Shown here: piece after piece, positions 9,155 to 57,672 of the stretch
Layout: the number at the start of each line of letters is the position of its first letter
How positions within the stretch are numbered: the stretch's first letter is position 1
Origin: Pyrofollis japonicus
GTDB lineage: Archaea > Thermoproteota > Thermoprotei_A > Sulfolobales > Pyrodictiaceae
DNA: 64,000 bases
Direction: 5' to 3'
NCBI RefSeq assembly: GCF_033097485.1
Contig: NZ_AP028634.1
Location: 1,603,126-1,667,125, forward strand
Notes under the pieces: generated by a model
What the model was told of the DNA's origin: nothing
What the model saw: the letters and a program-made list of their open reading frames with translations, nothing else
Database searches by the model: none
Position numbers and translations under genes: made by a program

Positions 9155-10060
9155 GTGCATGTTTTGCAGCAATCCGATCTAAGAGCCCAGCTCAAAGAAT
9201 TCCTCGTAGAGCTGATAAAGGTTGCTGAGACGAGGCTTCCTGTAGACGTTTACGAGGCGCTCAAAAAGGCCTATGAGACCGAGGAGAACCCTATCGCGAA
9301 GCAGCACCTGGAGGCAATACTTAGGAACAGCGAGCTTGCAGCAAAACTAGGTAAGCCGATATGCCAGGACACGGGCACCCCGGTCTTCTACGTTGAGATG
9401 GGGGCAGAATTCCCGCTACGCGCCGAGTTCTATGACATTGCTAGGGAAGCTGTAAGGGAAGCTACTAAGCTAATCCCGTTACGCCCCAACGCTGTTGACC
9501 CGTTCCGCAAGAAGAATACGGGTGACAACACTGGGCGCTTTGTGCCATGGTTCGAGGTAGAGATAGTCCCCGGCGACGAGCTACGAGTCACCTTCGTGGC
9601 GAAGGGCGGCGGCAGCGAGGCGCCATCCACGCTCAAAATGGGGCTACCAATACGCGGTGTGCGCAACGTATGGGAGACAGTACTAGAAGCAATAGTGGAG
9701 GCCGGCCCTAAGCCATGCCCACCAGTAGTAGTTGGTGTCGGTGTTGCAGCACTAAGTGACCAAGCCATGGCGCTTGCTAAGAGAGCAGCCCTACTCCGCC
9801 CACTAGGCGAGCGACACCCCGAGCCAGACATTGCAGAGCTAGAAACCAAGCTCTTAGAAGCAATAAACGAGCTAGGGATAGGCGCACACGGCTTCGGAGG
9901 CAAGACCACGGCCCTTGACGTCCACGTAGAGTACGCCCACCGGCACCCAGCGACCTATGCTGTAGCGGTTGCGACGAACTGCTGGGCACTACGCCGCGCA
10001 ACAGGCTACATAACCTCCAGCGGTAAGTGGGAGATAACCTCAAAGCACATAACAGGTTAA
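9155..10060 (+). CDS. fumA: Fumarate hydratase class I, alpha subunit
   Basis: The 301-residue protein matches the N-terminal domain of iron-sulfur fumarases. Three cysteines at the expected places, C70 (GKPICQDTGTP), C188 (PKPCPPVV) and C276 (ATNCWALR), would hold the 4Fe-4S cluster that activates water in the fumarate/malate reaction. GGGSEAPST and GAHGFGGKTTALDVH are also typical. The GTG start at 9155 sits just after AAGG, and an in-frame TTG follows two codons later, so the start is approximate. The beta subunit follows 17 bases downstream. Confidence 0.93.
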   Translation: MHVLQQSDLRAQLKEFLVELIKVAETRLPVDVYEALKKAYETEENPIAKQHLEAILRNSELAAKLGKPICQDTGTPVFYVEMGAEFPLRAEFYDIAREAVREATKLIPLRPNAVDPFRKKNTGDNTGRFVPWFEVEIVPGDELRVTFVAKGGGSEAPSTLKMGLPIRGVRNVWETVLEAIVEAGPKPCPPVVVGVGVAALSDQAMALAKRAALLRPLGERHPEPDIAELETKLLEAINELGIGAHGFGGKTTALDVHVEYAHRHPATYAVAVATNCWALRRATGYITSSGKWEITSKHITG

Positions 10061-10077
10061 GACAAGAGGTGGGACCC

Positions 10078-10680
10078 ATGGCCCGGATATATCACCTACG
10101 TACACCCCTAAGCGAAGAAGATGTAAGGCAGCTAAGAGTAGGCGACACAGTATACTTGTCGGGAATAATCTTCACTGCCAGGGACGCGGCGCATAGAAAG
10201 ATCCTCGATCTCATTAACCGCGGAGAACCATTGCCCTTTGACCCCAAAGGCTTAGCTGTCTATCACGTGGGCCCCGTTGTGCGCAAGAAGAACAGTGAAT
10301 GGGAAGTAATCGCCGCTGGCCCCACGACGAGCGCGAGACTTGAACCAGTCGAGCACGAGTTCATAGCCAAGACGGGCGTACGCATGGTCATAGGAAAAGG
10401 AGGAATGGGGAAGAAGACAGCTGAGGCATGTAAGAAGTACGGCGCAGTCTACGCAGTGTTCACTGGAGGAGCAGCAGTACTAGCAGCCCAGGCAATAAAG
10501 AGAGTCGTAGACGTCTACTGGCTAGACGAACTAGGTATACCAGAAGCAGTATGGCTCTTCGAAGTAGAGAACTTCGGCCCACTAACAGTAACAATAGACT
10601 CAACGGGCAAAAACTACTACGACGAGATACTAGAAAACGCTAAGAAGAAAGCCCAAGAAATACTCGCAAAGCTACAATAA
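10078..10680 (+). CDS. fumB: Fumarate hydratase class I, beta subunit
   Basis: The 200-residue protein is the C-terminal-domain homolog of class I fumarases, with LRVGDTVYLSG near residue 22, GPTTSARLEP near 83, and GKGGMGKKTAEACKKYGAVY near 107 as conserved landmarks. The frame is open further upstream, but the ATG at 10078 has a GAGGTGGG ribosome binding site and gives the family N-terminus. It forms the two-subunit archaeal fumarase with the upstream gene. It converges with the succinate dehydrogenase operon, so malate-fumarate-succinate steps are encoded side by side. Confidence 0.93.
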   Translation: MARIYHLRTPLSEEDVRQLRVGDTVYLSGIIFTARDAAHRKILDLINRGEPLPFDPKGLAVYHVGPVVRKKNSEWEVIAAGPTTSARLEPVEHEFIAKTGVRMVIGKGGMGKKTAEACKKYGAVYAVFTGGAAVLAAQAIKRVVDVYWLDELGIPEAVWLFEVENFGPLTVTIDSTGKNYYDEILENAKKKAQEILAKLQ

Positions 10681-41645: not shown

Positions 41646-42788
41646 TTATGCCTCGTGGTCTAGGAGTTGTACTATGTGTTTGAATCGTTCCTTGAACCTC
41701 TCGTGGGAGAACTCCATGGCCCTGGCTTGCGCCTTTTTGCTCAGCCTCGGGTAGTCTTTGAGGGCCTTCTCTACTGCCTCTACGGCTTCCTCTACCGTGT
41801 TGTAGCCTAGGCCGTATCTTCCATGATACGTTATGTCGTTCCATGGCCCCCCGCTCCTGTGTACCACGGGCACTAGGCCTGCTGCCATGGCCTCTACAAC
41901 TGCTATGCCGAAGTGCTCCCCTATCATCGCGTGTATGTAGACCTTTGCCCTAGAGTATAGCTTGACTTGGTCTCTGCGCGGATAATCAACGTGGAGCCTC
42001 ACGTTGTGCAACTTGTACTTCTCTATGAGTTTCCGCAGCCTCGCAATGTATGGCGGTGACACTTTCCCGCTTGTAGCACCTACAATATGGAACTCCACGT
42101 CTGTCAAGTACTTGGCGACCTCGATCACTAGCTCGTGGCGCTTCTCCGGCGTAAACCTTCCACAGGCAACCACAATATCCTCCCGCTCCTCCGGCGGCGT
42201 CCTACCAGCCTCCAAGAACTCGTCTATGTTCACCGGCGGATACACCACTATAGCCTCCGCTCCGATATGGCGCCTAATCACGTCCCTCGAGTACTCCGAG
42301 TTCGTGAGCAGGACACGCCACCGCATCCTCTTAGCCATATAGCCCTGTATGGTCTCGTAGGGGGCGAAGTAGAGCCTCCAGAACAACGACTTAGAGTACT
42401 TCGCCGCGCTCGGCGTCTCGCGGAGAATAGCGAACGTCGGGAAGTGCATGTAGACTATGTCTGTTGACAGAGGAAGAGTATCGCCATGAGTATTGATTGT
42501 TAGGCTGCACTTCTTCCTATTGACTAGGAGCCCTAGAGCAGAGAGAAGCCTCATATAGATGCCGAAGGTCCTCACGGGGAAGGGTAGGACACTGTACTCC
42601 TCGTCGGGCCGGGGCGCCCGGCCACCATAGACGCGGTCAACCTTAGCCCAGTTGGTAGGCTCGGTAGTGATCAACAGCACCCGGTACCCGAGCTCCTTGA
42701 GCGCCTCGAGGACGGCCATTGCTAAGCGCTCGCCGCCGCCAGTAATGTTCAGCGAGTTATGAACAATACACGCCCTACGCTCACGCAT
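41646..42788 (-). CDS. Glycosyltransferase family 4 (Alg11-like)
   Basis: The 380-residue GT-B enzyme has an N-terminal GGGERLAMAVLEALKELGY (17-35) and the donor-domain segments ACGRFTPEKRHELVIEVA, HVDYPRRDQVKLYSRAKVYIH and GEHFGIAVVEAMAAGLVPVVHRSGGP with the retaining EX7E pattern. The HFGIAVVEAMA motif and overall length resemble Alg11-type mannosyltransferases. It probably acts at the cytoplasmic face on a lipid-linked glycan. It is followed upstream on the same strand by a second GT4. Confidence 0.85.
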   Translation of the reverse strand: MRERRACIVHNSLNITGGGERLAMAVLEALKELGYRVLLITTEPTNWAKVDRVYGGRAPRPDEEYSVLPFPVRTFGIYMRLLSALGLLVNRKKCSLTINTHGDTLPLSTDIVYMHFPTFAILRETPSAAKYSKSLFWRLYFAPYETIQGYMAKRMRWRVLLTNSEYSRDVIRRHIGAEAIVVYPPVNIDEFLEAGRTPPEEREDIVVACGRFTPEKRHELVIEVAKYLTDVEFHIVGATSGKVSPPYIARLRKLIEKYKLHNVRLHVDYPRRDQVKLYSRAKVYIHAMIGEHFGIAVVEAMAAGLVPVVHRSGGPWNDITYHGRYGLGYNTVEEAVEAVEKALKDYPRLSKKAQARAMEFSHERFKERFKHIVQLLDHEA

Positions 42789-42896
42789 CCCATCTAGTCA
42801 CCGCTAAGGCTCCAATACGGTACACATTTACACCAGGGATCTACTCTAAAGCCTTTAGCAACTACAACGATGCCTGACCCAACCCGCCTCTTATGC

Positions 42897-44003
42897 CTAG
42901 GCTCGTGTCTTCTCCTCCGCGATCTTCTCCACGAGGCGCGCTATCTTTTCCCGGAAAACCTCTTCCCGGAACATGGCTGCCCTCCGCTGAAGCCGTTCTC
43001 TCAGCTCCTCGAGCTCACGCCTACTACGCGACAACAAGTCCCTTATCCTGTCAGCAGCCTCCCTCGGATAAAGATACGTGAGCTCAGCCGGGAGATATTC
43101 TGGCACCGCGCCGCTTCGATGAGCCACCGGTATAGCCCCAGCCGCCATAGCCTCCACGACACTTATCCCGAAAGTCTCGTTAACCCCGAGATGGAGAAAG
43201 AACATACATCTGTGCAATAGCTCGTTCTTAGTTTCTTCATCGACGAAGCCGAGATGAGTAAATTTTACCCCGATCCTCTTAAGTTCCTTTAGAACTCTTT
43301 TGCCTGCATAATCCATACGCCCTATTATTACCAGTCTCATACTGCTTGGAAGATGTTTAGCTATAAGTGGAAGAAGCAACGCGCCGCCTTCAAGGATAAG
43401 TCTGTTTACAAGTATACAGTTCTCTCGCGGCTTGTTACGATTCCTATATATAAGTATCTTTCGAAGGGGAACAGGCGGATAAATAACGATAGAGTTTACT
43501 CCATATAGCTTCCTGACGAGCTGTACAGTGAAATAGCTATTGCTTATATGGATCATCATCTTCTTGGAGAGATTCCATACCGGGTTAAGTACAGCATTAA
43601 TAGCATTAGACACATGTTCATATAATGATGAAGGCGATTTCTTCCAGAACTCTATACCGGCTGGCGGCTGATGATAAGTAAGGTCACCAAATACCGGAAA
43701 ATCAGGCGAAGCAGAAGTAATAACAACATGTCTTGAGCCGCCAAAATAGTATAGAGAAGAAGCCAGGCAAAAAACCTTAATAAATGGTTCAAGAGCTATC
43801 CTTAAAGCTCCCTTAATAAAACGGGGCAGCTGCGTATCATATCTACTCAGCCACTTCGATATCATAGAACTGGATATATTTACGACCTCATAGCCTCTGC
43901 GTACAAGCTCTTCATAAATGACCCGGTACACATATTCTCCTCCGGTGCGCGGCTTATCAATCCGATTTAGATGAATCATTACAATACGTATTCTGTTCCT
44001 CAT
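42897..44003 (-). CDS. Glycosyltransferase family 4
   Basis: The 368-residue GT-B enzyme has TGGEYVYRVIYEELVRRGY (20-38), YPPVPLRK, the domain-linking LVNRLILEGGALLLPLIAKHL, HLGFVDEETKNELLHRC, and HLGVNETFGISVVEAMAAG with the EX7E pattern. It is paralogous in layout to the gene at 41646. Codon use becomes more AT-rich toward its N-terminal half. Acceptor and donor are unknown. Confidence 0.83.
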   Translation of the reverse strand: MRNRIRIVMIHLNRIDKPRTGGEYVYRVIYEELVRRGYEVVNISSSMISKWLSRYDTQLPRFIKGALRIALEPFIKVFCLASSLYYFGGSRHVVITSASPDFPVFGDLTYHQPPAGIEFWKKSPSSLYEHVSNAINAVLNPVWNLSKKMMIHISNSYFTVQLVRKLYGVNSIVIYPPVPLRKILIYRNRNKPRENCILVNRLILEGGALLLPLIAKHLPSSMRLVIIGRMDYAGKRVLKELKRIGVKFTHLGFVDEETKNELLHRCMFFLHLGVNETFGISVVEAMAAGAIPVAHRSGAVPEYLPAELTYLYPREAADRIRDLLSRSRRELEELRERLQRRAAMFREEVFREKIARLVEKIAEEKTRA

Positions 44004-44214
44004 TGCATCTCTCCTGCGTAATCGTTAAAGCCCTTCCAAGAACTTCTATTTTTACCAGCATCCATAAAAAGTCAATATTAAGACAAGGCATCATAATATG
44101 CTTTTGAGACTAGAACTCAGATGGAGTGACCTATAGCGTTTTATTAGCCCTTTGTTTAGCGTCTCAATAGGCGTTGATTATATGGAGTAAAATCGCATTA
44201 TATAATAATGATAC

Positions 44215-44406
44215 CTATACAAACCTATAGTTCCTATCCGACCTATAACCGTCATAAAGTATAATAACCTCGTAGTCGTCGAAAGACTGGTTCAACAAGC
44301 TATCAATCGATATCCTAAAGTACCTCAGCCTAGGCCTAAATACCGGCAGAACCACCGATACCCTTACCAGGCCCCCAGGCACAGCCCGAGGAACACTGCC
44401 CAACAA
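44215..44406 (-). pseudogene. Truncated GT2 glycosyltransferase N-terminus
   Basis: The 63-residue frame reads VRVSVVLPVFRPRLRYFRIS and IDSLLNQSFDDYEVIILYDG, the first strand-helix-strand of a GT2 GT-A domain, then stops. No continuation of the donor site or metal motif is found in 44004-44214 in any frame. It is a broken gene fragment rather than a short intact protein. Confidence 0.6.
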
Positions 44407-44440
44407 GAACCCATAAATCGATTACAGCTAAGATATGTAG

Positions 44441-45460
44441 TTAGGAAGAGAACCTATCATGGACCCTCGAGGGTCTACCATGATGCCCCCCAACATGTGC
44501 TCTGCCCAGCTCTCCTAGGAGTGCCTCAGCAGTCCTCCTCACAGCCTCCCTGCTGTTCATCCTCGGCTCCCACCCAGTGTCCCTCCTTATCCTCACTATG
44601 TCTAGGAGCATGAGCTTGACATCGCCCGGCCAGCCCCTGCCGTCCGGCGTCGCGGGCTTATAGACGTACTCCACGCACCGGAGCCCCATAGTCTCAACAA
44701 CAATATCCGCTATCTCCCTGACAGTCACCCAGTCAGTATTCCCCACGTTATAGACCTCCTCCCGCTTCCCCGCCTCGAGCACGTGCTCCACAGCCCTCAG
44801 CGTCGCCTCCACAGCGTCATCAACATACAGGTAGCTCTTCCTCTGCGACCCGTCGCCAAGAATCTCCAGCATCATCGGGTTCTCCTTAAGCTTCATTATG
44901 AAGTCGTAGATTACACCGTGGCGGAGCCGAGGCCCCACGATATTAGCGTAGCGCAGCACAAGACACTTCATCCCGTAGAGCCTTGCATAGGTTAGACACA
45001 TGGTTTCTGCAGCAGCCTTTGTAGCACCATATATACTTATCGGTCTAAGGGGGTGAGTTTCGGGTGTTGGGATCTTCTCGGGATCACCATAAACGGTGCT
45101 CGAAGAGGCGAAGACAACGAGTTTTACATTATTTTGACGAGCGGCCTCTAATACGTGCATGGTGACGGTAACGTTCTGGTGGTAGTGGTCTAGGGGCTCC
45201 CGGACGCTGTGCCGAACCTCCGGGTTCGCAGCTAAGTGGAAAACAATATCGACATCTCTGAATGCTTCGAGCCACTCGTCTGGCCTCAGTAGATCGCCTC
45301 TAATGAATCTAAAGCTAGGAGATCCTATAGCATTGTCTAGGTTCTCTAGACGGCCTGCAGATAAGTTATCTATACCGATAACTGTGTATCCCTCTTCTAG
45401 AAGCCGATCAACAAGGTGGCTACCAATAAACCCGGCGGCACCAGTAACAATGGCTCGCAA
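44441..45460 (-). CDS. NAD-dependent UDP-sugar epimerase/dehydratase (GalE-like SDR)
   Basis: The 339-residue extended SDR has TGAAGFIGSHLVDRLL (6-21), FHLAANPEVRHSV, the catalytic ASSSTVYG and SIYGATKAAAE (Y-x-x-x-K), and RYANIVGPRLRHGVIYDF. This pattern fits UDP-glucose/UDP-GlcNAc 4-epimerases. The last 20 or so residues are unusually His/Arg-rich (HVGGHHGRPSRVHDR) and look like an added tail. The TTG start follows a strong GGAGGTG. It lies in the glycosyltransferase neighbourhood and would supply an epimerised sugar donor. Confidence 0.87.
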   Translation of the reverse strand: MRAIVTGAAGFIGSHLVDRLLEEGYTVIGIDNLSAGRLENLDNAIGSPSFRFIRGDLLRPDEWLEAFRDVDIVFHLAANPEVRHSVREPLDHYHQNVTVTMHVLEAARQNNVKLVVFASSSTVYGDPEKIPTPETHPLRPISIYGATKAAAETMCLTYARLYGMKCLVLRYANIVGPRLRHGVIYDFIMKLKENPMMLEILGDGSQRKSYLYVDDAVEATLRAVEHVLEAGKREEVYNVGNTDWVTVREIADIVVETMGLRCVEYVYKPATPDGRGWPGDVKLMLLDIVRIRRDTGWEPRMNSREAVRRTAEALLGELGRAHVGGHHGRPSRVHDRFSS

Positions 45461-45607: not shown

Positions 45608-45616
45608 TTTATAAAA
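45608..45616 (+). promoter_or_regulatory. TATA-like promoter of the secreted propeller gene
   Basis: TTTATAAAA stands about 61 bases before the GTG start, inside a strongly AT-rich 120-base divergent region. A second TTATATACT at about 45621-45629 is an alternative. The GAGGAG ribosome binding site lies between it and the gene. Confidence 0.5.
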
Positions 45617-45676
45617 AGCCTTATATACTTGCTATTCCTCTACTAGTAAGTGAGTACGTGCGAGGAGACCGTATAA

Positions 45677-47035
45677 GTGGAAAATAGTCTCTTCCGTATA
45701 GGAGTCCTCTCTCTGGCCCTTCTCCTCTTTGCAGGAGCTGTGGCCCTCACGCATATAGTTTTTGCAGATAATAATAGCAACAATGTCTATGTGACTGACC
45801 TCATTGCGGCCCAGCACACCAAGGTTGGCGAGGTAAGGGTTTGGAGTGATGGCGAGAACCTCTACGTCACCTACCTTATCACGGCTTCGCCTAAATGGAG
45901 CATGGTTGAAACCCATCTAGCAGTTGCCAAGAGCCTCGACGATATTCCACACACGAAAAAAGGTAACCCAGTGCCAGGCAAGTTCCCCTATAAGGCAGTA
46001 CACAATCCACCCACAACAGCAGTAACCTATACAATACCACTAAAGGATATCGGTGCTAAGCCAGGAGACACCGTCTACATAGCAGCACATGCAGTGGTAA
46101 TGAAGACCGTGTGGAAAGAGCCATATAGGGAGACAATGTATCTAAGCGATACAGGGCAAACAGGAAATGATAGTAAAGGCGCAAACATATACAGGTACAG
46201 TGTAGACGACTTCGCGAAGAGAGTCCTCCTAGACTTCATAACCCACTTGCCGGCCCCAGTCTTTGACCAGATAGACGCCCTAGCAGCCACTCCAGACGGT
46301 AAGTATATCTACGCGATTGATCGCTACAGCCATCATATAGCAAAGATAGACCCCCGAACCGGTAAGTGGAAAGACCTAGGCAAAGTAACAAACCTAGCCA
46401 ACGGAGTAGTACTAGCAGCATTCTCGCCCAGCGGCGAACTCTGGGTAGCAAGCCAAGACACCAACCACCTCTACGTAATAAACTTGAGAAGAATGAAGGC
46501 AAAAGACATGGGCGGAGTAACCTACCTGGGCAAGCCCTTCAACTTCCAAGGTGCAGACATAGTGTTCACCGCAAGTGGCACATTATATGCCTGGAGCAAT
46601 TATGATAGTAAGGCACAGCCACGCGGAATGTACATAATAGACGTGGCAACCATGACTGCCACGTATATAGGCACTCCACATGGACCGAACTACGTGACCG
46701 GAATGGCTATAAGGCATGGAGGACTAGGCCCAATAATGACCTCAGCACACATCTCTCACACAAAGAACAAAGTATTCTCAATGACAGTAGGTGGGCCAGC
46801 GGCAACATTCATAGAGTATACACCATACTACTATGGATACTACTATGGCTTACCAAAAGAATTCAAACTAGGATACGGCGATATGACAGTAGGAGCACTA
46901 GCCAAGCCAATATGCAGTAAACAGGAAACAGCATGGGCAAAAGGAGAACCGTTTAGTCACTGCCACTGCGGATGCGGCTGCCACGGAAACTGGGCAATGT
47001 ACTTCACATACACAATACCAACAACAAACAACTAA
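45677..47035 (+). CDS. Secreted protein: beta-propeller inserted in a split domain, with CxCxCxC cluster
   Basis: The 452-residue protein has a signal peptide (hydrophobic residues 10-29, ending in VFADNN). Residues of about 30-150 (VGEVRVWSDGENLYVTYLIT, VETHLAV, GKFPYKAVHNPPTTAVTYTI, YIAAHAVV) match a domain known from secreted bacterial proteins. Its usual C-terminal strand, E-T-A-W-x-x-G...NWAMYF-x-Y, appears only at 415-446. In between are beta-propeller-like repeats (LAATPDGKYIYAIDRYSHHI, AFSPSGELWVASQDTNHLYV). H428-H436 reads HCHCGCGCH, an alternating cysteine cluster. The ligand and role are unknown. The GTG start follows GAGGAG. Confidence 0.75.
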   Translation: MENSLFRIGVLSLALLLFAGAVALTHIVFADNNSNNVYVTDLIAAQHTKVGEVRVWSDGENLYVTYLITASPKWSMVETHLAVAKSLDDIPHTKKGNPVPGKFPYKAVHNPPTTAVTYTIPLKDIGAKPGDTVYIAAHAVVMKTVWKEPYRETMYLSDTGQTGNDSKGANIYRYSVDDFAKRVLLDFITHLPAPVFDQIDALAATPDGKYIYAIDRYSHHIAKIDPRTGKWKDLGKVTNLANGVVLAAFSPSGELWVASQDTNHLYVINLRRMKAKDMGGVTYLGKPFNFQGADIVFTASGTLYAWSNYDSKAQPRGMYIIDVATMTATYIGTPHGPNYVTGMAIRHGGLGPIMTSAHISHTKNKVFSMTVGGPAATFIEYTPYYYGYYYGLPKEFKLGYGDMTVGALAKPICSKQETAWAKGEPFSHCHCGCGCHGNWAMYFTYTIPTTNN

Positions 47036-47040
47036 CTTAA

Positions 47041-47205
47041 AGCTCAGCGAAAAGGGGAAGCCTCTCCCAAAAGGCTCGGCAAGTCTCGAGGTGCGGGCCA
47101 GAGAGAGGACCCCAGCCCCCAAGAGGGGCGCCAAAGCCCCCCGGGGAACTGCCCCCGGAGGGGCAGTGGAGCCCCTAGGGGGCCACACAGTAGACACGGT
47201 TTTTC
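47041..47205. other. GC-rich hairpin cluster and probable terminator
   Basis: This gene-free stretch contrasts with AT-rich flanks and contains several strong hairpins, including CTGCCCC/GGGGCAG and GGGGC/GCCCC, ending in GGTTTTTCT. It probably ends the upstream transcript. The element 47153-47182 (CCCCGGAGGGG, nine bases, CCCTAGGG) resembles the right inverted repeat at 33707-33735. A stable RNA is also possible. Confidence 0.45.
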
Positions 47206-47362
47206 TAAATTCTATCCTCTTTAGTGTCATTGTAGACATAAAATACTTAATAATTATATAGATTCATGAAATTATGGTATAAGCTAATAGTAGTTGGCCG
47301 GCTCCGATAAAACCCGGCTGCACCGCACTAGCAATTCTAGCTAGCTCATGCTCAACTGTCTA

Positions 47363-47371
47363 TGTTATATA
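47363..47371 (+). promoter_or_regulatory. TATA-like promoter of the subtilisin-like gene
   Basis: TTATATAAT lies about 65-73 bases before the GTG at 47436. A transcript starting about 25 bases downstream would exclude the upstream in-frame TTG at 47373 and supports the later start. A second AT-rich ATTTATTTATAT follows at about 47386-47397. Confidence 0.5.
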
Positions 47372-47435
47372 ATTGTTCAACCACAATTTATTTATATGGG
47401 CATCGCGGCTAATCCCCAGTATATTGGTGCTAAAG

Positions 47436-50400
47436 GTGGGTTCTCGAATCTTTAAACAAGTCCTTCTATCAGTTACGCTAGCAATATTTCTAATGAGTAT
47501 GCTATCGCCTATTGTGTCGATCGTGGGAGCAACAAGCTATACAAATAGCCCTATTAGGCCAGAAACCCTCAAGGATATTCCACTACCTTCGCTGCATACA
47601 ATGAGTGTAACCGGAAAATCAAGCGACATTGGCGACAATATCCGCAAGGCTTTTGCCGAGAACATTGTACCAGACAAGATCATAGTAGTATATGATAAAA
47701 GGGCTATAGAGTCACCAGCGAATAAGCAGATGCTCGAAAAGCTTAACTTCCAGTTCGGGTTCAAGAGCCTAGCTAGGCTTAAAGCGTTTAGAAAAGTTGT
47801 AATAGACGTAGTCAAGCTGCCAAAGAGCATGGAGATTAAAAGCTATAAGGACTTCCTCCGCGTCAAGGAAATCTACAAGCACTTACCCTTTGTCAAAAAC
47901 GTATATCCTGACGTGAAGTACAAGCCAGCAGCGGTCGCAATAAAGTTTCTCAACGGCACGGTAGTAAATCTCGAATCTATGCCACTAATGTCAACAAGTA
48001 GCTCGCAACCCGCGCCAGCAAGCCTCAATATAAACGATGGCTATGCACATGATCTATGGAACCTCGAATTCATAGGCATCGAAAAAGCATGGAGCTATAC
48101 CACAGGCTCGCCAGATGTTGTTGTAGCAGTCATTGACACGGGTATAGTGCTTCACCCCGACCTCGTAGGCAATATATGGGTTAACCGGGGCGAAATCCCT
48201 GGTAACAATATAGACGATGATGGCAACGGCTACGTTGATGACTTCTATGGCTACGACTTCGCAGATCACGATCCCTACCCATGGGATACAGATGGGCATG
48301 GAACACATGTTGCCGGCATCATTGCAGCAGAAGCCAATAATAGCATAGGGGTTGCAGGCGTCGCTCCCCATGTCAAGGTAATGGCTCTAAAGGCGAGTTG
48401 CGACTACTGCAGGTTTCTCGACGGGGATGCAATACTTGCTGCAATAGACTATGTGATAACGATGAAGGAGCGCGGCGTCAATATAGTCGCCGTATCAGCT
48501 AGCTGGGGTTCAGCATGGATCGGGCTGCCACCGGACATTGTCTTGAAGTACTTTGAGCAACCACTCTACGACGCGATAAAGGAGCTTGGGAAACATGGTA
48601 TATTATTCGTTGTTGCCGCTGGAAACTATGGTACATTTATTGATGATGCTGCCGTGACTATTACTCCGGCCGAGTACAACTTACCTAATGTTATCAGTGT
48701 CGGCTCGGTAAACTCTGATGGGTATCTATCCTGGTTCAGCAATTACGGATACGGTAGTGTTGATTTGCTTGCCCCCGGTGATTGGATTCTATCAACATAC
48801 GGGTATACGTGTTGTGGCGGCAGAACACGGACGGACTATACCTGGATGAGCGGTACTAGTATGGCAACGCCGCACGTAAGCGGCGTAGCAGCACTGCTAG
48901 CAAGCTACTTCAAGAATCACGGTATAAAACCGTCAAACCTAAGCATAGCGATAAAACTAGCATTGCTTCTCACAGCCAACCAATCATATCACGATGAAAA
49001 CGCTATGAAATGGGTCAAAGCAGGATACCTAAACGCCTCGACAGCACTCGAAACAGTAGTAACAAATCCCTCTAAGGTAGGAGCAATACTGATTAGTCCA
49101 ACACCTCTCCCATATCCGGGAGCCAGCCAGAATCCAGATGACTCGATGAGAGCAGACCTTGTACCAGCAGGAGTAAATGTAACCTTCAAGGTGCTTGCAG
49201 GAACCGTGACCGGCTCCCTCGACAACACGGTAGTCAAGGTAATAGATCATGCGACAGGCAGAGTCATAGGCGTTCTTCGCGACGACGGTACTTACCCGGA
49301 CGAGGCGGCAGGCGATGCGGTCTATACAGGAAACGTTGTCATACCAATAAATACGTCGTTACTAGGACTAGCGCAGGAGCGCAACATAACGATAGCGGTC
49401 TACGATTCCGCAGACAACATGCTCTATGCTAGAACCTATACCCTTAAGGTAATGAACATAGGTGCAACCTATGAGGCAAAACCAACACAGTTCACTTGGG
49501 TAAACTGGGAAGACCTTAACACGAACCCCATTTACTACTTTGATATAATGAATGGAGTCTTTACCCCTGTACATAGCATAATGATATACAAGGCGATAAC
49601 CAATATATTTGGCATCAACTGGACCCAAATGACACAGTGGCAGTATGGTAGAGAATTACGCGATATGATACCGCCGCTAGGGAAAGTATATAAACAGCCA
49701 TCAATAATCATTGGCTCCCTTGCAGTAGGAAGAATGTGGAGCCAGTGGATAGGTTCGCCCCCACTCTTCTATGGCCCCGAGAATATACATGGTATATTCG
49801 CGGAAATAGTAGCAGTAGCAGTCCCAGATCCAGACACGCATATACATACCTATAAGCTTCAAGTGATACCAACAACAATTGACGGAGTAAATGCGAAAGC
49901 ATATATCATGCACGAATTTGGCTGCAGCTACGGTGCTGAATGCAGAGGAACAGATTTGGAGATAATAGCCCTAGACAACGGCTCAATAATAATGAGCTAT
50001 GACCGTCTTAACACAACGGTCTTTAAAGCATCACCAATAGCGTTCATAAGCCTAGGAGGAATACTGTCAACAGTTTACAACATCTCCACACTCGCAGATA
50101 GTGACGGAGTAATACGGCAGAAATCAATAATCTTCAACCCAGTACCACTAGTGCAACAACCAACACCACAGCCAACATACAACATGGAATGGGGCGTCGT
50201 CAGCGTGACGCACGTACCAAAGTTCGTCAGCTTCCAGAAAACCTACACAAACCCAGTAGTCGTAGCTGGGCCAGCAACCTACAACGGCCCTGACCCAGTG
50301 ATACCCTCAATACTTAGCATCAATAACACTGGCTTCACTATAGCACTCAAAGAATGGGACTATCTCGACGGGAAACATACTAGTGAGGACGTTGGCTATA

Positions 50401-50951
50401 TCGTTGTAGAAGCTGGTACACACCATCTAAGCGACGGAAGACAAATAGAAGCTGGCTATGCAAATGCATCAACCACCGGCTGGAGATGGGTACAATTCCC
50501 AGAGTCTTTCGATGCGACACCAATAGTAGTAGCAAGCATAGCCAGCGATACCCCACACACAGTAACAGTGAGAATAAAGGGTGTAAACACTACCGGATTC
50601 TTCGTCATGCTGGAACCACAGGAAAGCCTCAAAGACTCGGTATCCCTTAGCGCCAAGGTATCATGGATAGCAGTCGAACCCGGTGCTACTGATGTACTAG
50701 AGGCAGGTACAGTTGCATTGCCAGAAGGCAACAACCCATCAGCAACGATAAACTTCGCTAACACCTATACGAAAAAACCAATAGTACTAGCATCGATAGA
50801 GACGTTCAAGGGTGCAGACCCAGTAATACTGAGAATAAAGTCGCTCACAACTGCATCAGCAACGCTAATGATGCAAGAAGAAACCTCAAAGGATTCTGAA
50901 ACATATCATGTGAGCGAAACAGTAGCATATATAATACTATCACCAAGCTAG
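47436..50951 (+). CDS. Large secreted subtilisin-like serine protease (S8) with C-terminal beta repeats
   Basis: From the GTG at 47436 the protein has 1171 residues: signal peptide (1-32), a propeptide-like region to about 190, and an S8 catalytic domain. Catalytic residues are D234 (VAVIDTGI), H288 (DGHGTHVAG) and S475 (SGTSMATPHVSG), with oxyanion asparagine in VVAAGN. After about residue 540 come beta-rich domains. Near the C-terminus two or more repeats of the type VVVAGPATYNGPDPV, then GFTIALKEWDYLDGKH, resemble surface-protein modules. The extracellular targets could be S-layer or peptide nutrients. The frame is open to 47373, but a GGTG and the promoter position favour 47436. Confidence 0.9.
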   Translation: MGSRIFKQVLLSVTLAIFLMSMLSPIVSIVGATSYTNSPIRPETLKDIPLPSLHTMSVTGKSSDIGDNIRKAFAENIVPDKIIVVYDKRAIESPANKQMLEKLNFQFGFKSLARLKAFRKVVIDVVKLPKSMEIKSYKDFLRVKEIYKHLPFVKNVYPDVKYKPAAVAIKFLNGTVVNLESMPLMSTSSSQPAPASLNINDGYAHDLWNLEFIGIEKAWSYTTGSPDVVVAVIDTGIVLHPDLVGNIWVNRGEIPGNNIDDDGNGYVDDFYGYDFADHDPYPWDTDGHGTHVAGIIAAEANNSIGVAGVAPHVKVMALKASCDYCRFLDGDAILAAIDYVITMKERGVNIVAVSASWGSAWIGLPPDIVLKYFEQPLYDAIKELGKHGILFVVAAGNYGTFIDDAAVTITPAEYNLPNVISVGSVNSDGYLSWFSNYGYGSVDLLAPGDWILSTYGYTCCGGRTRTDYTWMSGTSMATPHVSGVAALLASYFKNHGIKPSNLSIAIKLALLLTANQSYHDENAMKWVKAGYLNASTALETVVTNPSKVGAILISPTPLPYPGASQNPDDSMRADLVPAGVNVTFKVLAGTVTGSLDNTVVKVIDHATGRVIGVLRDDGTYPDEAAGDAVYTGNVVIPINTSLLGLAQERNITIAVYDSADNMLYARTYTLKVMNIGATYEAKPTQFTWVNWEDLNTNPIYYFDIMNGVFTPVHSIMIYKAITNIFGINWTQMTQWQYGRELRDMIPPLGKVYKQPSIIIGSLAVGRMWSQWIGSPPLFYGPENIHGIFAEIVAVAVPDPDTHIHTYKLQVIPTTIDGVNAKAYIMHEFGCSYGAECRGTDLEIIALDNGSIIMSYDRLNTTVFKASPIAFISLGGILSTVYNISTLADSDGVIRQKSIIFNPVPLVQQPTPQPTYNMEWGVVSVTHVPKFVSFQKTYTNPVVVAGPATYNGPDPVIPSILSINNTGFTIALKEWDYLDGKHTSEDVGYIVVEAGTHHLSDGRQIEAGYANASTTGWRWVQFPESFDATPIVVASIASDTPHTVTVRIKGVNTTGFFVMLEPQESLKDSVSLSAKVSWIAVEPGATDVLEAGTVALPEGNNPSATINFANTYTKKPIVLASIETFKGADPVILRIKSLTTASATLMMQEETSKDSETYHVSETVAYIILSPS

Positions 50952-51124: not shown

Positions 51125-52075
51125 TTATCTAGTCTCTAGCCTATGCTGTAGCTTTCTAATAGCCCTAAGAAGGCGTAGTTCTGCTCGTTTAGCATATACA
51201 GCAAATATAGATAAAAGAAGTGATTGTGCGCCAACAGCAGTTAAAATAATAGCTACTATCCCTTTTATGTAATGCTTAATACTTTTAGCAAAATATTCGT
51301 AGGAAGTCCATACTCCAAGTACGATACCTGGCACGAGGAGGAGGGCACCGATAAGGGCTATGAGAAAGATAGGATTATAGCTCCAAGAAAGACGAATCAT
51401 GTCAAGAAATATTTGAAGCCCGTGTGTGACCTTTAGCTTTTTCTCTCCTATTCTTTTACGATATGTTATAGGGTACTCGCATATTTCTTCGCCACTTCCT
51501 GCGACATGGGCAGCAATTTCTGCTTCTATGCTAAATCCTTTTGTCTCAAACAGTGCATAGTCAAGCAAATCTCTTTTTACGAGATACATTCCTGATAATA
51601 CATCTTGGAGTCTTGTACCAAATAGAAGATTGAAGGTCTTTGTCAAAAACCAATTACCAAACCTGTTAAGTAAAGGTATATTGTTTCTACCGCTCAGTCT
51701 AGCGCCAATGACTTCTCCGCAATCTTTTTCCAGCGCTAACCTGAGCATTTCCCAGATATAGTGAGCTGGATAGGTATAGTCTCCATCTATTACTAATATA
51801 TATTGGGTTTTAGTTAAGCTTATACCTTTACGGACAGCATCTGCCTTTCCGTTTCCGTCTTGCTCTACAACCATAACTCCCTTAGAAGAAGCGATCTCAC
51901 GAGTATTGTCGGTACTATGTCCATCAATGACTATTATTTTGTCGCGGGGAACTCCTACTTTAAGTAATTCATCTATAACTAGCCCTATTGCATCCTCCTC
52001 GTTCTTTACAGGTATAATAACCGTAACAAGCCTGCTAAGCTTGTAAAGTTTTTCACTCGATTGCATCTGCTCCAA
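51125..52075 (-). CDS. GT2 glycosyltransferase, dolichyl-phosphate mannose/glucose synthase-like
   Basis: The 316-residue enzyme has a GT-A domain (VTVIIPVKNEEDAIGLVIDE, IVIDGHSTDNT, QDGNGKADAVRKG, and the metal motif VIDGDYTYP). It ends with two membrane helices (about residues 235-260 and 270-295). This is the layout of archaeal dolichyl-phosphate sugar synthases, which load a sugar onto a lipid carrier for use outside the cell. It starts the AT-rich block. The polytopic protein upstream could be a transferase that uses the lipid-linked sugar. Confidence 0.85.
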   Translation of the reverse strand: MEQMQSSEKLYKLSRLVTVIIPVKNEEDAIGLVIDELLKVGVPRDKIIVIDGHSTDNTREIASSKGVMVVEQDGNGKADAVRKGISLTKTQYILVIDGDYTYPAHYIWEMLRLALEKDCGEVIGARLSGRNNIPLLNRFGNWFLTKTFNLLFGTRLQDVLSGMYLVKRDLLDYALFETKGFSIEAEIAAHVAGSGEEICEYPITYRKRIGEKKLKVTHGLQIFLDMIRLSWSYNPIFLIALIGALLLVPGIVLGVWTSYEYFAKSIKHYIKGIVAIILTAVGAQSLLLSIFAVYAKRAELRLLRAIRKLQHRLETR

Positions 52076-52180
52076 ACACCATATAAGTTAATTATAACTC
52101 GTAGTCATAGTTTTTTCTTTATCAGCCCCTTACATAGAGGATCCTTTCTTAAGATATCGAATACAATTCATAAGTTTTTA

Positions 52181-54100
52181 TTATGGATCATTAACTCTTA
52201 TCCACACTTTATATTCTCCTATGGAGCCTATTGAGATAAGCTTGAGTTCTGAAGCAGTTCTTTTTGTTATTATCATATTAGGCTTAGAAAAGATTATTTT
52301 TATTTCATATTTATCTAATATATACTTCTTTATACTAAAAGGTATTTGCGAGAAATTGTACTTACCTACGGCGGTATAACATATATCAAACAAGATAGAC
52401 GTATATACTCTGGTCTTAATCATGACATGCCTTGGGTCACATCCCAAAACCTTTTGAGGGAAGAGACCCCATAGAATATTTGCCTCTGGAGTAGCTGGCA
52501 AAAGAACTCTTCCTTTACTATTTTTAACTAAGTAATATAAGTTACTTATTAAATCTACATTTATTAGCTTTCTTTGAATTGGAGGATTTATTTTCAGTAT
52601 ATGTATAATTGTAGTAAAGAATAATATAACTATGATTAATATAATAATTAATCTTAATGTTTTTTTATTATTTAAATAAATAGATAAGAATCCAATCGAT
52701 GAAAATATAGATGTTACAATCATTATTAGAATATAAATTCTTGTAAATAAAAGGAATGGTGTAACAGTAATGAGAGCAATTGAAAAGAACAATGTTGAAA
52801 TAAATACTTTTTTATAAATTATTATATTATTTTTAATATATTGATAAAAACCTATTATAGCAAGAATATAAAAGATAGTTCCAAAATATTGTGTTGCCTT
52901 TAAATAGGCATTCACTAAGAACTTCGTGTATGGTATAAATTTGTAGCGTACATATAATCTTGGGTCGAAGGTCTTTCCAAGTACACCAGGCTCTATTTCT
53001 AAATATGGTATGTTTTTCCTAGGTTGCAAGTATTTCCATGTAGGAATGACATTTTTTCCCCATCCTTCTGTATAAGCTTTAAATACGGGTGTTGATTTAC
53101 TTAGAGCTAATGTAAAAATAAATAAAAAAACTATAAGAAAAATTAGTTTTTTATATATATTGCTTTTATATTCTTTTTTAATAATATTGAATAATAACGA
53201 TAATATTATATAGATTATGGCAGTTGCTAAAAATGTATAATGAAACATTATCAAAGAATATAGAATTAGAATTAATATTGCTATTTTTACATATTTCTTG
53301 TTAAATGATAAATTATAGGCAGTAATAAATGTAATGAAATATAACGCTCCTGCTATTGCATTACTGTTTATTGGATATGAAAGAACGTAGCCAAGCGCTG
53401 ATACTATTAAAATTGTCAAGATAATTATTAATACATATATCTCTCTTTTATTTTTAATATATAATATTTTATCAATATTAGAAAATATATTAAAAATTAT
53501 TCCTAATATTGATAAAAATATACCGAATATAAGTAGTGATATAAAAAACGAGCTAACTAGTATAGAAACGTGAAGTATGCTATGAAGATTCTCAACAATA
53601 TTTATTGTATCAAAATGTTTTATTAAAGGAATTGTTTTAATGAAAAATGTCGAATATAATGATATAATTATAGCAGATCCTAATGGATAAAAAGCGGGAT
53701 CGATGCTTGCAGGCTGATAACGGGGGATTTTTCCTTGGACAATAATATAGAATGCTTGAGATATTATGTTATTTTGATCCCATATATAAGGTAACAATTT
53801 ATAGGATTTAATACCTATAATTATAACCATTAGCATAACTATTGATAATGCTAGAAATACTTCTTTATATACAAAATTTAAGGAAATACTCTTTTTTAAA
53901 TCTCTTAATATAAGATATACTAGAAATAATGATGTCGCTATAACAGTTATTATAATATAAAGACTTAATCCTATAGTCAGTATTAATAGATGACTAATTA
54001 ACGTATTTAACGAAATATAGATAGTTAACATTAAAGTTATGATTTTAAATATATTTGCTATTCTAAAAAATAGAATATTTAGATATTTATTTTGAGTCAT
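52181..54100 (-). CDS. Polytopic membrane protein, GT-C glycosyltransferase-like
   Basis: The 639-residue protein has roughly twelve or more hydrophobic helices and a C-terminal soluble part from about residue 510. A loop after the early helices reads LLPYIWDQNNIISQAFYI and GKIPRYQPASIDPAFYPLG. An acidic residue in the first large loop is what GT-C transferases use, but no exact DxD motif is clear. The base composition is far more AT-rich than most of the window, with Ile, Lys and Asn codons dominating. It overlaps the next gene by 14 bases. An oligosaccharide polymerase is an alternative. Confidence 0.65.
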   Translation of the reverse strand: MTQNKYLNILFFRIANIFKIITLMLTIYISLNTLISHLLILTIGLSLYIIITVIATSLFLVYLILRDLKKSISLNFVYKEVFLALSIVMLMVIIIGIKSYKLLPYIWDQNNIISQAFYIIVQGKIPRYQPASIDPAFYPLGSAIIISLYSTFFIKTIPLIKHFDTINIVENLHSILHVSILVSSFFISLLIFGIFLSILGIIFNIFSNIDKILYIKNKREIYVLIIILTILIVSALGYVLSYPINSNAIAGALYFITFITAYNLSFNKKYVKIAILILILYSLIMFHYTFLATAIIYIILSLLFNIIKKEYKSNIYKKLIFLIVFLFIFTLALSKSTPVFKAYTEGWGKNVIPTWKYLQPRKNIPYLEIEPGVLGKTFDPRLYVRYKFIPYTKFLVNAYLKATQYFGTIFYILAIIGFYQYIKNNIIIYKKVFISTLFFSIALITVTPFLLFTRIYILIMIVTSIFSSIGFLSIYLNNKKTLRLIIILIIVILFFTTIIHILKINPPIQRKLINVDLISNLYYLVKNSKGRVLLPATPEANILWGLFPQKVLGCDPRHVMIKTRVYTSILFDICYTAVGKYNFSQIPFSIKKYILDKYEIKIIFSKPNMIITKRTASELKLISIGSIGEYKVWIRVNDP

Positions 54101-55070
54101 TTTTAAATACCTTTTTTAAAAGTATTAATATCATTATAGTAAGTGTATCTAATACACTTATAGGCTTGATGGAAAAATCATTTGCAAGTTCTTGTAATAC
54201 TGTATTTATGGCTTCTCTTACGTAACCATAATTTATACTATATAAATCCTTATCAAACGCAGTTTTCAAAAAATTATTATATATTTTTGAAAAATAGGAA
54301 TATTTTTTAAATATGTATAATCTAGATGCTTTATATGGTTCTGTGAAATGATAAGCTACAGCGTTTAATGATAAACATACTCGCATTTTCTTACGAAAGG
54401 CCCATATAATAGTTTTATTGTCATCTCCTCCTATAGGCTTTCCAGACATATAGCCTAGAAACTCATCGTTTTTCATATTCAAGTATAATTGTCTCTTAAT
54501 AGAAAGATTTGCACCCCATAGTCCTGATGAGCATGATGTGTAGCAATAAGATGGAGGCTCTATCACTATTATGTCATCTGATTTAATCCTTAGGCCACAT
54601 CGGCAAAGAAACCATGTATTATAAACCGTCAGGCCCCTTGCAATATATCTTGAAAAGCTTTTTTTAACAATATTTTTATAGGGTCTAGGAGGCAACAGAA
54701 TACCAGCTACAACATCACATCGATATTTATGGAAGGCTTTATGTACCTCATAACCCCATTTAGGACTTACAATAACATCATCATCTAGAAAAGATACTAT
54801 CTTGCCAGAAGCTATTCTTGCTAGCCTCCGTCTGCATGCTTCTAGAGGATCAGACCAGCCACATACATGAACAATTTTAAACTCGATATTATATTTGTTT
54901 GATAAATTAGTTATAATGCTCTTTAATCGAGGATTGTCATTATTTAGATTATTAATAATTATTTCTCTAATGTATTTTCTATTTTGATTGAGCATTAAGG
55001 TTCTTAAAAGATATGGTAGAACCTTTCTCTTATCTGCTGCTACTATTGCAACACTAATCTCTCTCTTCAA
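54087..55070 (-). CDS. GT2 glycosyltransferase
   Basis: The 327-residue enzyme has a GT-A domain: VAIVAADKRKVLPYLLRTLM (8-27), VHVCGWSDPLEACRRRLARI, and the metal-binding VSFLDDDVIVSPKWG near residue 95. A later GGDDNKTIIWAFRKK resembles the ED acceptor motif. No transmembrane helix is apparent apart from a hydrophobic C-terminus (ILILLKKVF). The TTG start is preceded by GGTGAC. It shares the AT-rich composition and strand with its neighbours and overlaps the membrane protein gene. Confidence 0.8.
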   Translation of the reverse strand: MKREISVAIVAADKRKVLPYLLRTLMLNQNRKYIREIIINNLNNDNPRLKSIITNLSNKYNIEFKIVHVCGWSDPLEACRRRLARIASGKIVSFLDDDVIVSPKWGYEVHKAFHKYRCDVVAGILLPPRPYKNIVKKSFSRYIARGLTVYNTWFLCRCGLRIKSDDIIVIEPPSYCYTSCSSGLWGANLSIKRQLYLNMKNDEFLGYMSGKPIGGDDNKTIIWAFRKKMRVCLSLNAVAYHFTEPYKASRLYIFKKYSYFSKIYNNFLKTAFDKDLYSINYGYVREAINTVLQELANDFSIKPISVLDTLTIMILILLKKVFKNDSK

Positions 55071-55123
55071 ATAAATGTCACCATAGAACTAAAATTCGCT
55101 TAAAATTTGCATCAAACCGAATG

Positions 55124-56068
55124 TTAATCAATAACCACCAAAGGGACGTATCTTAGCTCACTGCTATACAAAAGTGGCGGATGAAAAAATACTCTTATAC
55201 CATAGAAATAACCTCTTGCAGTACTTTTTTTTGTAAGTAGTTTATGGAAAGTTTCCTTTAAAATGAGACTTTTTCTAGTAAATATATTAAAATCATTTAA
55301 TAATGATTCATGGATAATATTTACTAATGATGATATGATTACTTTAATCAGATTTTCCCCTAGTAGCTCTCCGTGGTCAGAAGTGACTACTATAGTTCCG
55401 TCAAGATTTTTTATAAGCTTATATACATAATTAAGTACAATTTTGACATTATCCTCATACATACGGGCTAATAATTTCCAATTATGAGATATTATTTTGT
55501 TTAGTGTATTTCTTATCATATGGTCAAGAGATCCCTTAAGGAAGTCTTCACCGCTACTTTTATAAGTAATTTTTTTAAGCATATTAACGAACTCTTCACT
55601 TAAATAAGGATAATGTGGTTGTATAAACCATATTATTGACCTTTTCATTTTTTGAGTTCTTTTCCATACTTCAGTGTTAACTCTTACTATCCTATAGAGT
55701 CTCCACGGCGGTACAGTCATTAATTTGTCGCTCCAAGCTATTTTCCATACTTCAATAACTCTCTCAAATTTATCTTTGGCCTTCCAACATATACCCGAAA
55801 CACATGTTTCTTTATTAGAATTATTTATATAGGGATTAGCAGAAAAAACGACTGTATTGGGAAACTTTTTCGTAAAAACAGATGAAAGCCATTCTAAAGT
55901 CCAAGATGCAGGGCTTTTTGCTTTGTATACTGTATATTGTGTTAATTTCCATAATTTAGCAAAATAATCATAACGACAAGCGTCCAGTACGATAAGGTGG
56001 TCCCAAGACAAATTATGAATTAGATTTATTTGATTTATAGCTGATTTGTTATCAGTTATAATTCTCAA
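55124..56068 (-). CDS. Alkaline phosphatase/sulfatase-fold protein
   Basis: The 314-residue protein begins with LIVLDACRYDYF (25-36), a sulfatase-superfamily first strand in which C31 stands near the metal aspartate. It has the second metal site TIVVTSDHGELLGE near residue 230. It lacks a recognisable CxPxR formylglycine motif, so it need not be a sulfatase. Similar proteins occur in archaeal surface-glycan clusters. No signal peptide is seen. AT-rich, same strand as the glycosyltransferases. Confidence 0.7.
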   Translation of the reverse strand: MRIITDNKSAINQINLIHNLSWDHLIVLDACRYDYFAKLWKLTQYTVYKAKSPASWTLEWLSSVFTKKFPNTVVFSANPYINNSNKETCVSGICWKAKDKFERVIEVWKIAWSDKLMTVPPWRLYRIVRVNTEVWKRTQKMKRSIIWFIQPHYPYLSEEFVNMLKKITYKSSGEDFLKGSLDHMIRNTLNKIISHNWKLLARMYEDNVKIVLNYVYKLIKNLDGTIVVTSDHGELLGENLIKVIISSLVNIIHESLLNDFNIFTRKSLILKETFHKLLTKKSTARGYFYGIRVFFHPPLLYSSELRYVPLVVID

Positions 56069-56138
56069 CGTTTGTTGCCCTAATAGACTTTATTTCTTGT
56101 TTAGATCATGTCTGAAATCTCTCCTGGTTCCGCAAGAA

Positions 56139-56582
56139 TTATGGCCAAGTTCTTAGCCATGGATTGTCTAAGAGCTGTATACCTATAGCGAGGAGTACGT
56201 CCAAACCCTTCTCCAGTAGCTGTGTGAATAACCTCTTCGTCTCACTGACTAGCAAGTGAAGGATAGCTGCGTAGACTGCCCTCCCTCGAACAGTAGCCAT
56301 TTCGACCATTACCCAAATATTTCGCAATATCTCAACTAAGAAAGCTGATTGGTAAACGGTAACAGGGGCCCGTGCAGCTGCTACGAGGAGTGCTCGTTGC
56401 TCGCTTGCTAAGGTTCTCCATGCTCCATTGCGGAGTGCTCTTCTAAGGAGCCGCTGCACTGCAACGCGTGGAACCGGGTAGGGCCCTGGGGCAAGGAGTT
56501 CAACAGTAAGCCTCCAAGCAGCTTCCCTAGCCTTAGCGTATTTTTGCATAGCTAGTATTGATAGTCTTGTTAATAACGTCAA
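56139..56582 (-). CDS. Hypothetical helical protein
   Basis: The 147-residue protein is not recognised. It is almost entirely helical and rich in Ala, Leu and Arg (YAKAREAAWRLTVELLAPGP, RRALRNGAWRTLASEQRALL). Its base composition is GC-rich, unlike the AT-rich block immediately after it, so it marks the edge of that block. It could start at the TTG at 56582 or an internal ATG before QKYAKAREAAW. Confidence 0.5.
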   Translation of the reverse strand: MTLLTRLSILAMQKYAKAREAAWRLTVELLAPGPYPVPRVAVQRLLRRALRNGAWRTLASEQRALLVAAARAPVTVYQSAFLVEILRNIWVMVEMATVRGRAVYAAILHLLVSETKRLFTQLLEKGLDVLLAIGIQLLDNPWLRTWP

Positions 56583-56922
56583 GGCCCCAGGGCCCCGCAG
56601 ACCGAATGTCCGAAAAAGAAAACATACTGTCCTATAGGGGGATATAAGCCTATCAACCGAGAAGGCGAAGATATCACTATAATATGTGCTTCACGCCAAG
56701 TGTCTAACCGAAACATGCTTCTTTCGTTATGGATTAAGAAGCTATTCGACAAAATCTTTTAAAGAGTAACAAGAATAATTAAAACATAATCATTAGAGCC
56801 ATATGGATGATATAATGTAAATTTCAACTATAATATAAAGTCAAGATAAATTAATGGTTCATAAGAGTTACCTAGCACTCTGCTGCAAGCTGTGCCGTAG
56901 AACTTGAATACTTCAATACTTC
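56583..56922. other. AT-rich intergenic stretch without a gene
   Basis: No ORF of coding character, tRNA or clear repeat is seen. Several TATA-like runs (TATAATATG near 56680, GATATAATG near 56810) could be promoters for the flanking minus-strand gene at 56582. Confidence 0.5.
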
Positions 56923-57672
56923 CTAGTTCTCATTATTGACATCTAAGAATTCTTTTATTTCTTCGTGATTAAGTTTCTTATATCTTTCGAGGCTTCCTAC
57001 GTCGTACCAGGGGCCTTTATAGATATAGGCTTTTACGCGCATTTCGCTCCTTATCATCCAGGGGATTAGGTCTCCCATTATGTCGAAGCTTTTGCCGAGT
57101 TCTTTCTCGGCTTGTGGCAGTACGTTTGGGTTTAGGGTGAGTATGGCTATTGTTGCTTTTATTTCTAGCCAGGGTTTTTCTCGTAACTCTACTATGTTGT
57201 TGCCCTCGAGCTTGGCTACGCCTACTGGTACTCGATACCTGTCTGCGAGTGCTAGTACTGCGTCAGCTTTTTCCCGGACGTGGTACTCTAGCAGTTCTTT
57301 TACGTTTAGGGGGGCGAGTATGTCTCCGTACCATATTAGGATCGGGTTTGAGTTTAGGAGGCCTTGCTTGTAGGCGTTGAGGACTGCGCCGCCAGTGTCA
57401 CGGTACTCCTCGGTGTCGAGGCTGTAGTGTATTCTTACTCCCCATCTCTCGCCGTTGTTGAAGTAGTTTCGTATCTGTTTCCATTTGTAGCCTACGAGGA
57501 GCACGATCTCTTTTATGCCGTGTTTTGCGAGCCACCGGATGATGTACTCTAGAAGCGGCCTCTCATCGGGGCCTAGTGGAATCATGGGCTTAGGCACTAT
57601 CTCTGTGTAGGGGCGGAATCTTGAACCCTCGCCTCCGGCAAGGATGGCTGCGACGATATTGTTTATGTTCAA
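56923..57672 (-). CDS. Sugar-phosphate nucleotidyltransferase
   Basis: The 249-residue enzyme has the nucleotidyltransferase signature ILAGGEGSRFRPYTEIVPKP (residues 10-29), ERPLLEYIIRWL, DTGGAVLNAY and the metal-site WYGDILAP. It makes an NDP-sugar (GDP-mannose, UDP-glucose or dTDP-glucose type) from NTP and sugar-1-phosphate. It lacks the C-terminal beta-helix of longer family members. The TTG start follows GGAGGG. It probably feeds the nearby glycosyltransferases. Confidence 0.87.
   Translation of the reverse strand: MNINNIVAAILAGGEGSRFRPYTEIVPKPMIPLGPDERPLLEYIIRWLAKHGIKEIVLLVGYKWKQIRNYFNNGERWGVRIHYSLDTEEYRDTGGAVLNAYKQGLLNSNPILIWYGDILAPLNVKELLEYHVREKADAVLALADRYRVPVGVAKLEGNNIVELREKPWLEIKATIAILTLNPNVLPQAEKELGKSFDIMGDLIPWMIRSEMRVKAYIYKGPWYDVGSLERYKKLNHEEIKEFLDVNNEN

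Follow-up and report, generated by a model that had tools for sequence, protein, structure and literature searches.

A beta-propeller in the insertion slot of a split, unnamed beta-sandwich domain of a predicted exported archaeal protein

The window, by which is meant the whole 64,000-nucleotide stretch of DNA that was analysed (64 kb, 50.6% G+C), contains a reading frame whose two ends look like the two parts of one protein domain, and a long region of a different type lies between them. This raises the question of whether a single domain is in fact interrupted by another, whether such an arrangement is found elsewhere, and what a protein built in this manner might do. The gene and its associated signals are as follows.

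45677..47035, + strand: whole open reading frame, GTG start codon, open for 452 codons (452 amino acids); predicted exported socket-domain protein with a propeller insert
45608..45616, + strand: putative TATA-like box of archaeal type, TTTATAAAA (pattern match)
45662-45665, + strand: GAGG, a short, putative Shine-Dalgarno-like sequence upstream of the GTG start (pattern match)
45680..45766, + strand: signal peptide, residues 2-30 (ENSLFRIGVLSLALLLFAGAVALTHIVFA), ending in ...THIVFA (read directly from the sequence)

At the amino acid level, a V-x-A sequence predicts cleavage of the signal peptide after A30. The protein is thus a candidate for secretion and may be located at the cell surface; as its C terminus displays no visible anchor, it may be released rather than surface-held. 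The genome consists of a single contig of 2,005,174 bases (completeness 99%) and has one copy of the domain that hosts the insert, the one encoded here. A homologue of the gene was not found in 57 related genomes, four of which are of the same genus.

The proposed halves of the host domain and the parts of the insert between them are located as follows.

45782..46099, + strand: N-terminal half of the host (socket) domain, residues 36-141, ending in YIAAHAVV; AF2 pLDDT mostly 86-98
46100..46237, + strand: linker and N-terminal strands of a closing propeller blade, residues 142-187, assigned from the repeat pattern; the linker is of low confidence in AF2
46271..46849, + strand: four blade repeats, residues 199-237, 244-281, 292-336 and 340-391, delimited by eye; DUF6923 over cut-off
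46874..46912, + strand: strand YGDMTVGALAKPI, residues 400-412, thought to close the propeller and in the position that ...DLASG... takes ahead of ETAW in the propeller-like guests of bacteria
46913..47032, + strand: C-terminal half of the host domain, residues 413-452, an ETAW ... GNWAMYFTY hairpin; both strands of high pLDDT

A reading made from the sequence only had suggested that a domain of secreted bacterial proteins is split in this protein, and profile searches bear this out. Half-HMMs, whose seed alignment included the window halves as rows, match residues 36-141 (E 2.8e-46) and 417-449 (E 4.9e-14), which are 275 residues apart; beyond the seed, the same half-HMMs also match homologues in which the two halves are contiguous. 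The A5 profile, which was built from uninterrupted homologues alone and has no window row, matches the two halves separately (N half, E 3.7e-40; C half, E 1.4e-5). Uninterrupted homologues come from both archaea and bacteria, and in 39 of them the half-HMMs place 5-15 residues between the halves, the exception being L078 with 47. The existence of two halves was correctly foreseen, but the N-terminal half had been ended at GKFPYKA (residue 107), and it extends to YIAAHAVV (residue 141). The insertion sits in the loop just after this sequence.

The conserved residues of the domain are retained on both sides of the insert. E417, W420, W439 and G101 are identical in all 33 rows of the full alignment (A2), and E78, H80, G101, F103 and H138 of the window protein occupy near-invariant columns. 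The N-half signature ...W...ETHLAVA...GNP.PG.FPYK...YIAAHAVV and the C-half signature ETAW.xGxxF...NWAxYFxY are both present in the window protein.

Structure predictions are consistent with these alignments. An uninterrupted homologue is modelled by AF2 as a beta-sandwich with a mean pLDDT of 95.5 and a pTM of 0.88. Both halves of the window protein are modelled with confidence, the C-half strands at a pLDDT of ∼90-95, with an overall pTM of 0.55. From this confidence and the strand assignment, the two halves appear to pack together; pieces lying apart, which the sequence-only reading had named as the adverse outcome, are not what the model suggests. In some homologues the order of the halves is altered. 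Circular permutants, with the C half placed before the N half and few residues between, are found in L057, L076, L079 and L082, and a normal host copy followed by a permuted copy in one chain is found in archaeal L002, L004, L007, L026 and L036. The latter five are Desulfurococcaceae-type proteins. The new ends of the permutants are located in the insertion loop. Such permutants imply that the original ends adjoin and that both halves belong to one fold; the models and the permutants thus agree with the earlier suggestion that the C-terminal strand would complete the domain. Since homologues are uninterrupted, key residues are kept, the AF2 halves are confident and permutants exist, the host domain of the window protein is truly split, and the protein represents one domain interrupted by a propeller.

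The host domain is ∼130 residues long, and its predicted fold is an immunoglobulin-like beta-sandwich. No meaningful match to Pfam or NCBIfam was found with 36 members, nor did the host profile find a sequence relative in the PDB. The fold is weakly similar to carbohydrate-binding sandwiches, including 4iyk (E 4e-4) and the N-terminal glucan-binding domain of insect GNBP3 (TM about 0.5-0.6). When genome contigs were pattern-scanned with just the window protein, no relative emerged; the domain profile A1 found relatives across bacteria and archaea. Homologues were also found in the same phylum. The family is defined by alignments A1 and A5, and A2 comprises 33 proteins. Seventy genome loci were found via conserved peptide patterns, and the MAG contigs among them may contain errors. 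A tree of the host halves, based on 126 columns, leaves most branches without resolution and is used for its supported clades alone (L053 with L054, and a propeller-like clade with support 98/87). By eye, many members have signal-peptide-like starts or the look of lipoproteins.

The region between the halves, about residues 146-410, is a predicted DUF6923-type beta-propeller. It had been described as propeller-like from the sequence, and this description is strengthened by a Pfam match to DUF6923 (PF21959) at residues 201-342 (41.7 bits, cut-off 27) and by Foldseek matches of the window model to propellers in the PDB (TolB, Kelch, PknD). The TM-scores of these matches are low (about 0.3), owing to the lack of a modelled last blade. 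AF2 gives blades 1-3 a pLDDT of ∼80 (model residues 170-303), model residues 306-381 are unreliable, and the last blade (residues 335-410) has a pLDDT of 30-44. The propeller probably has five blades, i.e. the four repeats and a closing blade formed by one strand that precedes them and one that follows.

The insertion loop is also occupied in other members of the family. Inserts of 168-271 residues are present at the same loop in 28 further homologues. They fall into classes that have no sequence similarity to each other and represent at least five unrelated kinds: thioester-like (13), an unnamed domain (5), propeller-like (4), DUF642 (1, in L023) and two further unnamed kinds (3 and 2), proportions that are not population frequencies because the loci were chosen via sequence patterns. 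A link between L045 and L058 in the clustering is a 13-bit chance match, and these classes were kept separate. A PDB search with the guest profiles gave nothing useful.

The hallmarks of a thioester domain are a bond-forming Cys and Gln and a TQxxPhiW motif (PMC6194298). All 13 thioester-like guests have a Cys and a QxxIW-like motif, and C55, Q119, W123 and Q179 are invariant in the seven-row alignment A6 of such guests. The thioester domain profile PF08341 matches L059 with 28.9 bits (cut-off 22), other guests being below the cut-off. These guests are candidates for a thioester bond. An adhesion function has been described for thioester domains (TEDs), and the described relatives bind surfaces covalently (PMC4450167, PMC6194298). 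Thioester-like guests of archaea occur in predicted secreted proteins of Thermoproteota (L009, L011 and L013), Thermoplasmatota (L074) and Methanomassiliicoccales (L075); L013 is incomplete, with the Cys part alone seen. No description of archaeal covalent adhesins of the thioester type was found in the papers searched.

The propeller-like guests of L053, L058, L064 and L065 are so classified by repeat pattern, with a weak DUF6923 match in L058. L053, with a propeller-like guest, and L054, with a thioester-like guest, have hosts that share identical residues in 93 of 135 columns and form a sister pair in the tree (support 100/86). Computation thus places different guests on closely similar hosts. 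No convincing sequence homology was seen between the window propeller and the bacterial propeller-like guests, and the window host lies outside the clade of these bacterial cases (support 98/87). The simpler reading is therefore that the window propeller may have entered the common slot in an event of its own. When 400 genomes of the L065 phylum were scanned with a profile, seven matched, and no closer propeller case emerged. In L050 (5654-7492, + strand), a Bacteroidales lipoprotein-like sequence, the halves of a host-like domain are seemingly permuted and a propeller-like region comes after this domain; it looks as if a guest has been left hanging at the opened slot.

The sequence-only reading knew of no described protein with the arrangement of the window protein. 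The papers searched agree with this, but the arrangement seemingly recurs in four bacterial proteins. More widely, different guests occupy a common slot in this family, and the window protein exemplifies this pattern.

The reading that we consider fairly probable is that of an exported surface binding protein, in which an unnamed beta-sandwich socket presents a propeller head. The loop before the last hairpin (from ...YIAAHAVV to ETAW...) would be a tolerated insertion slot. A single folded domain would grip both ends of the DUF6923-type propeller in the slot, with no flexible linker, and in relatives the slot carries other heads, notably those that are thioester-domain-like. The propeller would be a ligand-binding head, for a sugar or a protein, and the socket its rigid presenter. 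We infer the binding function of the propeller from the slot relatives, whose described thioester kin bind surfaces.

Several known systems resemble parts of this arrangement. In Cpa of Streptococcus pyogenes, a class I thioester domain is found inside an isopeptide domain, so that the head is likewise held at both ends (PMC6194298). However, Cpa has another host domain, a thioester guest is the only one described, and the protein is at the tip of a Gram-positive pilus, whereas the window family has an unnamed host, is found in bacteria and archaea, and carries several kinds of guest. In integrin alpha, an inserted extracellular I domain alters binding, which is a similar situation, but there the propeller takes the role of host and the I domain that of guest (PMC12422189); in the window protein the propeller is the guest. 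DUF6923 (PF21959) is a repeat family whose function is not known, and its description holds nothing on insertion into host domains.

Domain insertion is already known in a few surface proteins, including cases of binding domains in surface domains. Here, one unnamed host of many bacterial and archaeal phyla takes up guests of at least five unrelated kinds in a single loop, and it is permuted there as well. This suggests that the host domain is a plug-in adhesion or sensing module. The family is a natural test case for the evolution of rigid two-point presentation and head exchange. It might also provide a protein engineering scaffold for high temperatures and a route to new adhesins, and it suggests that archaea may have covalent adhesins of the thioester type.

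An additional element of the window protein is found in the C-terminal half of the host.

46958..46984, + strand: HCHCGCGCH loop in the final hairpin turn, residues 428-436 (located in the sequence)

The position had been given exactly from the sequence. The cysteines of the protein are residues 413, 429, 431, 433 and 435, such that four of the five are in the loop, and none of 200,000 shuffles of the protein yielded CxCxCxC. The loop represents a gain of about seven residues over all aligned homologues; the others have a short turn, such as TNRG, and this turn varies among homologues in length and sequence. CxCxCxC is absent from all 62 other members that have a readable C half, a few of which have one or two unrelated cysteines. 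The cysteines, whose conservation the sequence-only reading had made a measure of the motif, are thus found in 1 of the 63 readable members, which by that measure speaks against the motif as part of the design, although the nearest homologue is about 51% identical. The CxCxCxC loop is a private elaboration of the window protein. As it is in the turn between the last two strands of the host, it probably lies at that end of the domain which is remote from the propeller.

By way of a guess, albeit a plausible one, the loop could be a binding site for a soft metal ion (Cu, Zn or Ni). It may even be the working part of the protein, presented by the socket and propeller for the capture or delivery of extracellular metal, a proposal that we regard as rather doubtful. 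Seven soft-metal ligands are found within nine residues, and the extra length and the result of the shuffles also speak for it, as does the unstructured His/Cys-rich tail of the Escherichia coli nickel chaperone SlyD, which binds Ni(II) (PMC7055735). The SlyD tail shows a similar density of metal-binding residues, but it is the C-terminal tail of a prolyl isomerase that has no homology to the window protein (PMC7055735). The presence of the motif in a single member of the family argues against a metal role, as does its absence as an exact HCHCGCGCH codon motif from viral contigs in a DNA motif search; by eye, a metal gene adjoining the locus is not obvious. The idea matters solely if binding is real. 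Tentative in the same way is a broader proposal, in which the host is a universal socket whose loop repeatedly swaps binding heads and opens in permutants, with a metal-capturing loop added at the opposite end in the window protein; cells would then alter their adhesion targets by exchanging heads on a constant holder.

At the DNA level, the loop sequence is hexamer-like (CACTGC CACTGC GGATGC GGCTGC, 46958-46981), and this detracts from a metal function, as the loop may be a chance expansion. Because these are near-repeats of a hexamer, an origin by slippage is possible. This leads to the proposal that the loop is a neutral or recent replication-slippage expansion that has no function and is located in a tolerant surface loop. 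We consider it somewhat unlikely. The period-6 look of the DNA, the variability of the turn in homologues and the singleton nature of the gene are in accord with it; however, Tandem Repeats Finder detects no array at a score of 30, and keeping four cysteines that serve no purpose would be expensive for a hyperthermophile in a protein predicted to be exported.

A different view of the whole protein is that it is an enzyme, with a lactonase-, esterase- or oxidoreductase-like propeller, and that the host domain is a mere anchor. Some secreted propellers do have enzyme activity, and DrSOD (PDB 9m58) is among the top Foldseek matches. DrSOD (DRA0202) of Deinococcus consists of a Cu/Zn-SOD and a six-bladed propeller and resembles the window protein in having an exported Ig-like sandwich and a propeller in each chain (PMC12362111, PDB 9m58). 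It differs in that a true SOD (residues 24-184) is followed by the propeller, the domains being in series and without insertion (PMC12362111). The Pfam Lactonase match of the window protein is weak (13 bits, as opposed to 21.7), and the thioester and DUF642 guests of the same slot point to binding rather than catalysis. An enzyme therefore appears improbable. A Cu/Zn-SOD, which the match to 9m58 had brought to mind, was rejected, as there is no Pfam SOD match and a model of the host alone has no SOD among its best folds.

Very improbable is a disulfide ladder, either stiffening the loop or cross-linking molecules at high temperature, for which the predicted export and the presence of C413 together with the four loop cysteines may be cited, but disulfides of adjacent CxC are strained, C413 would be at a strand start at the opposite end from the loop, and the loop is modelled by AF2 at middling confidence (block pLDDT about 63) with no secondary structure, which lends no support to the rigid ladder first proposed from the sequence.

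In the genomic surroundings, the gene directly downstream of that of the socket-propeller protein encodes a predicted exported protease.

47373..50951, + strand: S8 subtilase, predicted exported, 1192 amino acids, with two H-type lectin domains

No match to this subtilase was found at E 1e-20 in 38 related genomes. In L033/L151, too, an S8 gene comes immediately after the host gene (pair at 7418-10217, - strand, in L151, and at 45677-50951, + strand, in the window), and this gene order occurs in two different archaeal families. Between the window and L151 subtilases, the catalytic domain alone matches (33% identity). The subtilase is a possible, if weak, candidate for a functional partner; as a conserved partner it was set aside, since two of the eight archaeal host-gene loci read are too few for such a claim.

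Glycosyltransferase-, epimerase- and sugar-nucleotide transferase-like open reading frames are seen by eye at 41646-45460 and 51125-57672, and the surroundings of the gene are probably devoted to a surface glycan. A 939-residue open reading frame that lies some 3 kb upstream of the window (L095, 788-3604) has a leader, AIATIIGGVLLAIALLALL, that is similar to those of archaeal pilins, and at its C-terminal end it has a DUF6923-type propeller, the sole other one in the genome.
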